A DNA stretch of 64,000 nucleotides from Oleiharenicola lentus. GTDB taxonomy: Bacteria > Verrucomicrobiota > Verrucomicrobiia > Opitutales > Opitutaceae. Position numbers and translations under genes: made by a program. Below, in pieces: positions 57,733 through 58,100 of the stretch. Position 1 is the first letter of the stretch. Every line of letters begins with the position of its first letter. The notes under the pieces are model-generated. The model made no database searches, was not told where the DNA came from, and saw only the letters and a list, made by a program, of their open reading frames with translations. The DNA is taken from NCBI RefSeq assembly GCF_004118375.1, contig NZ_SDHX01000002.1, positions 1 to 64,000 on the forward strand. The letters are read 5' to 3'.

Positions 57733-57761
57733 ATAAAAATGGCACTCCGAGCGGGAGTGCC
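57733..57761 (-). terminator. Terminator of the VPDSG-CTERM peptide gene
   Basis: On the minus strand GGCACTCC pairs with GGAGTGCC over a 5-base loop and is followed by ATTTTTAT. A second hairpin, GTCTCC(CGCAC)GGAGAC, precedes it at about 57776-57792. Confidence 0.8.
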
Positions 57762-57805
57762 GATACGATCAAACCGTCTCCGTGCGGGAGACAGACGATG
57801 AAAAA

Positions 57806-57970
57806 TTATTTGGTGAGCTTGCGGCGCAGAGCGATGACGGCGAGAAGACCGAGAGCAAGAAACCCGATGGTGCCGCCGGAATCAGGCACCGAAGGCGGCC
57901 ATTGCACCGCATGGAGCTGATTAACTGCGAGGGATGCCAAGACGAGGACGGCGATAAGACGGTGTTTCAT
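57806..57970 (-). CDS. 54-residue VPDSG-CTERM sorting-signal peptide
   Basis: From ATG 57970 the product is MKHRLIAVLVLASLAVNQLH (signal peptide), then AVQWPPS, then VPDSGGTIGFLALG, a hydrophobic helix and a RRK basic end. This is a VPDSG-CTERM signal, the verrucomicrobial relative of PEP-CTERM, processed by an exosortase. Almost nothing remains between the two sorting signals, about 10 residues. An upstream ATG would add seven residues. The gene has its own terminator and a structured upstream region with two spaced direct repeats. It could be a true secreted peptide or the remnant of a longer gene, though no decay is visible. Confidence 0.75.
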   Translation of the reverse strand: MKHRLIAVLVLASLAVNQLHAVQWPPSVPDSGGTIGFLALGLLAVIALRRKLTK

Positions 57971-57977
57971 GCACCAC

Positions 57978-58008
57978 GCGTTAGCATACAAAATGCCAGC
58001 GTTAGCAT
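57978..58008. promoter_or_regulatory. Spaced direct repeats upstream of the VPDSG peptide gene
   Basis: Two exact copies of ATGCTAACGC on the minus strand (57987-57978 and 58008-57999), 21 bases start to start, about two helical turns, 8-38 bases upstream of the start codon in an A/T-rich stretch. Consistent with a regulator binding as tandem subunits. Confidence 0.6.
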
Positions 58009-58081
58009 TTGTTTTATATTACTGCTGTGCAGGGCAATATACATTTAGCGCGCAAACACCTAACTGACGACTACGCGCATA

Positions 58082-58100
58082 TTGTCAGAATATCCGACAA
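58082..58100. promoter_or_regulatory. Inverted repeat TTGTC-N9-GACAA
   Basis: TTGTC (58082-58086) is mirrored by GACAA (58096-58100) in the same intergenic region, between the sugar-permease stop and the peptide gene. Could be an operator or chance. Confidence 0.35.

Follow-up and report, generated by a model that had tools for sequence, protein, structure and literature searches.

A gene of only 54 codons in Oleiharenicola lentus, here called the mini gene, is probably a working, co-regulated member of a VPDSG-CTERM/exosortase regulon, and its product a minimal exosortase substrate. The gene was found in a stretch of 64,000 nucleotides (the window; contig NZ_SDHX01000002.1), where an initial annotation had linked it to the exosortase pathway. 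That tie is borne out, both by the VPDSG tail of the product and by an enhancer motif that the gene shares with others; placement in the regulon is well supported at the level of sequence. The annotation had also suggested a signalling peptide or a regulator of the pathway. This part found no support; the gene looks regulated together with the pathway. The features of the locus are as follows.

58082-58100: TTGTC (58082-58086) and GACAA (58096-58100) forming a mirror that overlaps the enhancer motif
58098-58083, minus strand: putative PrsR-type enhancer motif GTCGGATATTCTGACA, held-out score 17.1 bits
58008-57999, minus strand: first copy of the direct repeat ATGCTAACGC
57998-57983, minus strand: predicted sigma-54 type -24/-12 site TGGCATTTTGTATGCT, starting 100 nt downstream of the enhancer start
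57987-57978, minus strand: second copy of ATGCTAACGC, whose ATGCT is the -12 element of the predicted sigma-54 site
57970-57806, minus strand: mini VPDSG-CTERM gene, with ATG at 57970 and stop codon at 57808-57806 (54 codons plus stop)
Residues 1-21 of the product: apparent signal peptide, consisting of MKHR, a hydrophobic stretch and LHA, with the cut after LHA read by eye
Linker of the product: VQWPPS, about six residues
Residues 28-51 of the product: VPDSG-CTERM tail (TIGR03778, PF18205)
57794-57774, minus strand: second hairpin, between the stop codon of the mini gene and its terminator
57761-57741, minus strand: intrinsic terminator hairpin, followed by ATTTTTAT

Translation of 57970-57806 gives a protein of 54 residues with the layout MKHRLIAVLVLASLAVNQLHA-VQWPPS-VPDSGGTIGFLALGLLAVIALRRKLTK. 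Its tail scores 33.5 bits against TIGR03778 (cut-off 22; E 3.2e-8) and 32.8 bits against PF18205 (cut-off 25), and ranks third among the nine VPDSG tails over the cut-off in the genome. The other eight over-cut-off frames encode 203-383 aa. The description as a stand-alone gene for an apparent signal peptide joined to a VPDSG-CTERM tail is confirmed; both profiles recognise the tail, and the gene has its own predicted promoter and terminator. The cargo between the two is indeed near-empty; the linker comprises about six residues, not the roughly ten given at first. The two-hairpin terminator has a fold z score of -4.35, and none of 200 shuffles was equally stable, which agrees with the original reading of an own terminator with a second hairpin. 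Downstream lies a convergent gene on the opposite strand, presumably for a membrane protein. Upstream is the end of a same-strand gene, which we take to be a sugar-type ABC permease gene within an ABC operon; relatives of this permease, 66-75% identical to it, bear record names such as Opitutae, Lacunisphaera and Opitutus.

The control region of the mini gene recurs before other VPDSG genes. Upstream regions of 300 bases before the start codon were studied for 11 of the 13 VPDSG matches in the genome; the remaining two, L015 (15.4 bits) and L017 (13.4 bits), are partial profile matches. A Gibbs search of the last 240 bases upstream of nine paralogues (the eight over the VPDSG cut-off plus L014, which is below it), with the mini gene held out and L016 omitted, yielded a 16-base motif resembling GTCGGATAnnnTTACA, located 104-184 nt upstream of the start codons. 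In the held-out mini gene the motif lies at -128 with a score of 17.1 bits, the next best site reaching 2.9 bits. On neither strand of the 64-kb window does any other site score within 2 bits of this value, which was matched by none of 3000 shuffles. Leave-one-out scoring left the top enhancer site unchanged in all ten forward genes. Such a top site is present in all 11 VPDSG genes examined; it is weak in L008 (6.6 bits) and L013 (7.5 bits, runner-up 6.9) and reversed in L016 (14.6 bits), a gene with a VPDGG tail below the VPDSG cut-off and no sigma-54 site. The TTGTC/GACAA mirror that had been pointed out upstream of the gene is real, and belongs to a motif that clearly exceeds chance expectation. 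The accompanying idea that the upstream elements form a private module of the mini gene, and hence an unusual investment in so small a product, is not borne out; the mirror belongs to an enhancer-like motif common to other VPDSG genes and one of the repeats supplies the -12 element, so that the control region is the standard one of the set and nothing special to this gene.

Taken alone, the sigma-54 match of the mini gene is not significant; it is equalled in 112 of 3000 shuffles and at 11 places in the window, and it scores second to a match inside the upstream permease gene. What lends it weight as a candidate promoter is its distance from the enhancer, together with the evidence of the paralogues. 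With an untrained sigma-54 consensus, the best site in the 300-nt regions of eight paralogues carries GG/GC, 30-61 nt ahead of the start codon; for the mini gene, a site at -28 is equalled by one at -220 in which the GC is missing. In nine of the 11 VPDSG genes examined, the mini gene included, the promoter start follows the enhancer start by 100-126 nt (123, 115, 103, 123, 123, 126, 104 and 103 nt, and 100 nt for the mini gene). These distances, in L005, L006, L009-L014 and the mini gene, cluster near 100-104, 115 and 123-126 nt, as if the sites lay on one helix face. The two remaining genes, L008 and L016, have no recognisable sigma-54 site, and their start codons may be misassigned. At 7 bits per element, the mini gene has the sole enhancer/promoter pair 98-128 nt apart in the 64-kb window.

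A strict pattern that combines enhancer, gap and promoter matches five places in the whole genome (one for the reversed control), four of which precede VPDSG genes (L006, L010, L011 and the mini gene); the fifth is at C1:1958120. Across the family, matches to the pattern occur in at least 121 of 252 genomes; many of those listed are G+C-rich and look like coding sequence, and no count is drawn from them. Among the matches listed, genomes G083 and G090 have nine each, with none for the control, and in these the right half of the enhancer is TTAC rather than TGAC (eight of nine in G083 and seven of nine in G090). The predicted transcription start of the mini gene lies about 2 nt before its ATG, and no ribosome-binding site is seen. 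Predicted sigma-54 starts 2-8 nt before the start codon are found for L009, L010 and L012 as well as for the mini gene; such positions may leave several transcripts of the regulon with almost no leader. A sigma-70 promoter for the mini gene was considered and rejected in favour of the sigma-54 reading; 3 kb contain two weak sigma-70 matches where 0.7 would be expected.

The two exact copies of ATGCTAACGC, 21 nt apart, are present as first described (58008-57999 and 57987-57978). The repeat is only mildly unusual: when the 182-nt intergenic stretch was modelled by 20000 Markov sequences, 223 of them contained one or more exact 10-mer repeats spaced 10-31 nt apart, and the window itself holds 39 such pairs (overlapping 10-mers counted separately), whereas 30 Markov sequences averaged 3.1. 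In the 4.7-Mb genome the 10-mer has four copies (reversed control, one) and the pair occurs once. An open frame on one strand or the other runs across each of the two single copies; the copy at L001 may be intergenic all the same. A scan for further pairs thus recovered the one at the mini gene, and no second one in the genome or the genus. The exact pair is unique among 21 genomes of the genus, and allowing up to three mismatches adds three matches in other genomes of the genus, the reversed control giving four. A separate regulon motif was rejected on these numbers (four copies in 4.7 Mb, one pair). The -12 region of L012, 34 nt before its start codon, reads ATGCTAAC, just as in the repeat of the mini gene. 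There is likewise a resemblance between that repeat and the 3' half of the enhancer consensus.

The genome encodes the machinery that such a regulon would need. About 153 kb from the mini gene, on the same contig, genes for an exosortase, PrsT, a VPDSG protein, PrsK and PrsR stand in a row. PrsT (362 bits, cut-off 312), PrsK (366 bits, cut-off 300) and PrsR (601 bits, cut-off 502.6) are all over their cut-offs, as is the RpoN of the genome (407 bits, cut-off 277). The exosortase scores 113 bits against TIGR02602 (cut-off 105.55) and 272 bits against TIGR04151 (XrtC), whose cut-off is 300. Divergent to the exosortase gene lies a gene for a LysR-type regulator (4923-5834 of L150, minus strand), with weak NCBIfam matches, none over the cut-off. 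Among the 21 genomes of the genus, several of them drafts, PrsR is over the cut-off in five (G000, G011, G012, G013 and G016), and weaker, sub-cut-off PrsR-like matches occur in all 21. VPDSG tails (E <=0.01) are found in at least six, namely the five PrsR genomes and G007. Three (G000, G011 and G012) have a strong XrtC-like match of 246-297 bits; the XrtC cut-off (TIGR04151) is passed in none of the 21.

Relatives of the mini gene are scarce. A protein search of 20 congeners (several of them drafts, the least complete at 69%) found no ortholog of any length, and so no long version of the kind named at the outset as the mark of a remnant, only tail matches, and a contig scan confirmed none in 593 stretches. 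Loci with a related permease number 34; in the 19 of these examined by a six-frame motif scan, no VPDSG-like tail lies within 2.5 kb downstream of the permease, two loci offering less than 2.5 kb of sequence and the permease end being set roughly in some. An order-level search with five minis, covering 372 sampled genomes at E <=1e-7, turned up no additional mini; minis with unlike signal peptides would escape this cut-off.

Short genes that combine a signal peptide with a VPDSG-type tail were nevertheless seen in as many as six genera of the family, that of the window included; the scan for other mini VPDSG genes proposed at the outset was in this respect productive, with minis in up to five other genera. 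Among the matches listed, 14 other VPDSG frames are of at most 104 aa; three are cut by contig ends, nine are tails that lack a signal peptide in their frame, and two, in G190 and G089, are minis with a signal peptide (59 aa each). Four further frames of 71-110 aa were examined among the matches listed. The G162 frame contains a near-empty 58-aa protein with a VPESS tail; the G158 protein has 83 aa with about 29 residues of cargo; that of G245 has about 70 aa, with an uncertain start and short cargo; and the frame G204:C200 is interrupted by a contig end. The survey leaves out G198:C81 (121 aa), and its family-wide counts are lower bounds. G190 has an enhancer, weak at 8.5 bits, 103 nt from a good sigma-54 site; G158 has an enhancer and a good sigma-54 site 125 nt apart; the sites of G089, 84 nt apart, are weaker; G245 has the enhancer only and G162 neither element. 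Of the five minis examined outside the window, G190 is thus the sole near-empty one with an enhancer/sigma-54 pair, and confidence in the preferred reading is lowered, since the cargo of about 29 residues in G158 leaves only this one near-empty, paired mini elsewhere. Minis of different genera need not be orthologous, as judged from their linkers, which have no evident common sequence beyond some prolines. In three other loci (L057, L059 and L061, in G198, G199 and G204), a conserved small gene stops just before an overlapping, out-of-frame VPDTG-like tail; this is either shared decay or a frameshift product.

In a regulon of this kind, a PrsR-like activator would bind the GTCGG-N6-TKACA enhancer, which starts 100 nt before the -24 element, and would turn on the sigma-54 promoter directly before the start codon of the mini gene, together with those of other VPDSG genes. 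The signal peptide would export the product, and the helix and basic end of the VPDSG tail would hold it in the inner membrane. Cutting by the XrtC-like exosortase would then leave a peptide of about ten residues (VQWPPSVPD...), which may be released, or attached in the envelope or to exopolysaccharide. The best guess for the product is a short processed surface peptide.

Other explanations have to be weighed against this. The mini gene could be a remnant, in which an in-frame internal deletion took the cargo of an ordinary VPDSG protein and left a gene transcribed under regulon control and devoid of function. The lengths of the other eight over-cut-off VPDSG frames of the genome fit such an origin, as do the missing ortholog in the 20 congeners searched and the frequency of tail-only frames in the family (nine of the 14 other short frames among the matches listed). 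Against this, the signal peptide and the VPDSG tail are intact, as are enhancer, promoter match and terminator, and minis that combine signal and tail are seen again in other genera, though among the near-empty ones only that of G190 has an enhancer/sigma-54 pair, with a weak enhancer. Decay is for these reasons possible but on the whole unlikely. At the other extreme, a chance open frame with a motif-like tail might be suspected from the very short length and, again, the lack of an ortholog among the 20 congeners. The domain match (E 3.2e-8), the terminator and an enhancer that was predicted from the paralogues and is unmatched elsewhere in the 64 kb make this highly improbable.

A special case of the preferred reading, a minimal substrate regulated with the pathway, is that the peptide, about ten residues long, acts as a signal after its release, or that the mini product occupies the exosortase and so provides feedback on the pathway. 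A near-empty cargo combined with the regulon's control region, and the minis in up to five other genera, would suit such a role. Against it stand the linkers of the minis, with no evident likeness beyond some prolines, and the nearest neighbours, which resemble an ABC operon of the sugar type and a gene for a membrane protein rather than a receptor or an exporter; this version is quite unlikely. A wider proposal, that the exosortase systems of this verrucomicrobial family use, besides large surface proteins, tiny substrates under sigma-54/PrsR control, whose products of about ten residues act outside the cell as signals or as decorations of exopolysaccharide, is rather unlikely; if true, it would make the exosortase an export route for short peptides.

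To our knowledge, the fate and use of exosortase substrates are still poorly known. A substrate almost without cargo is the simplest natural probe of this question, as whatever is made from it is a product of sorting itself. The control region of VPDSG genes also offers a handle for finding short members of the set that gene callers may miss.

The closest known counterpart is the PEP-CTERM system of Proteobacteria. According to Haft et al. (2006, PMC1569441), 99 of 167 proteobacterial PEP-CTERM genes have upstream a 17-base motif with TTTACA at its end, separated by 32-92 bases from a sigma-54 motif, and PrsR was put forward as a fitting activator. In that paper, the motifs are common to Proteobacteria only among the species studied, and PrsK, PrsR and PrsT are not listed in the table for Verrucomicrobium spinosum. 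The system described here is similar in having an enhancer ending in TTACA and -24(GG)/-12(GC) elements before CTERM genes, and in the presence of PrsK, PrsR and PrsT; it differs in its host (Verrucomicrobiota), its VPDSG tail and its XrtC-like enzyme. The gap between the two motifs is 84-110 nt here against 32-92 there, and the promoters are nearer to the start codon, motif 2 of the mini gene lying inside the 23-nt minimum reported (PMC1569441). Apart from the absence stated in 2006, the literature searched, with subscription papers mostly beyond its reach, yielded no account of control by PrsR in Verrucomicrobiota; the sequence comparisons suggest that the layout of PrsR enhancer and sigma-54 promoter probably extends to the VPDSG genes of this phylum.

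A further parallel is pepA of Aquincola tertiaricarbonis, whose RpoN dependence was measured and whose transcription start was mapped (PMC9850573); TGGCAC/CTGCTT is its putative RpoN promoter, and an enhancer is predicted upstream. The two genes, pepA and the mini gene, are alike as CTERM genes with a putative RpoN promoter and an upstream enhancer, whereas pepA is proteobacterial, has a different CTERM type, and is the one whose RpoN dependence was measured. Finally, the mini protein matches known VPDSG-CTERM proteins (TIGR03778, PF18205) in a tail over both curated cut-offs and an apparent N-terminal signal, and is set apart from the other over-cut-off VPDSG frames of its genome (203-383 aa) by its length of 54 aa and a cargo of about six residues.
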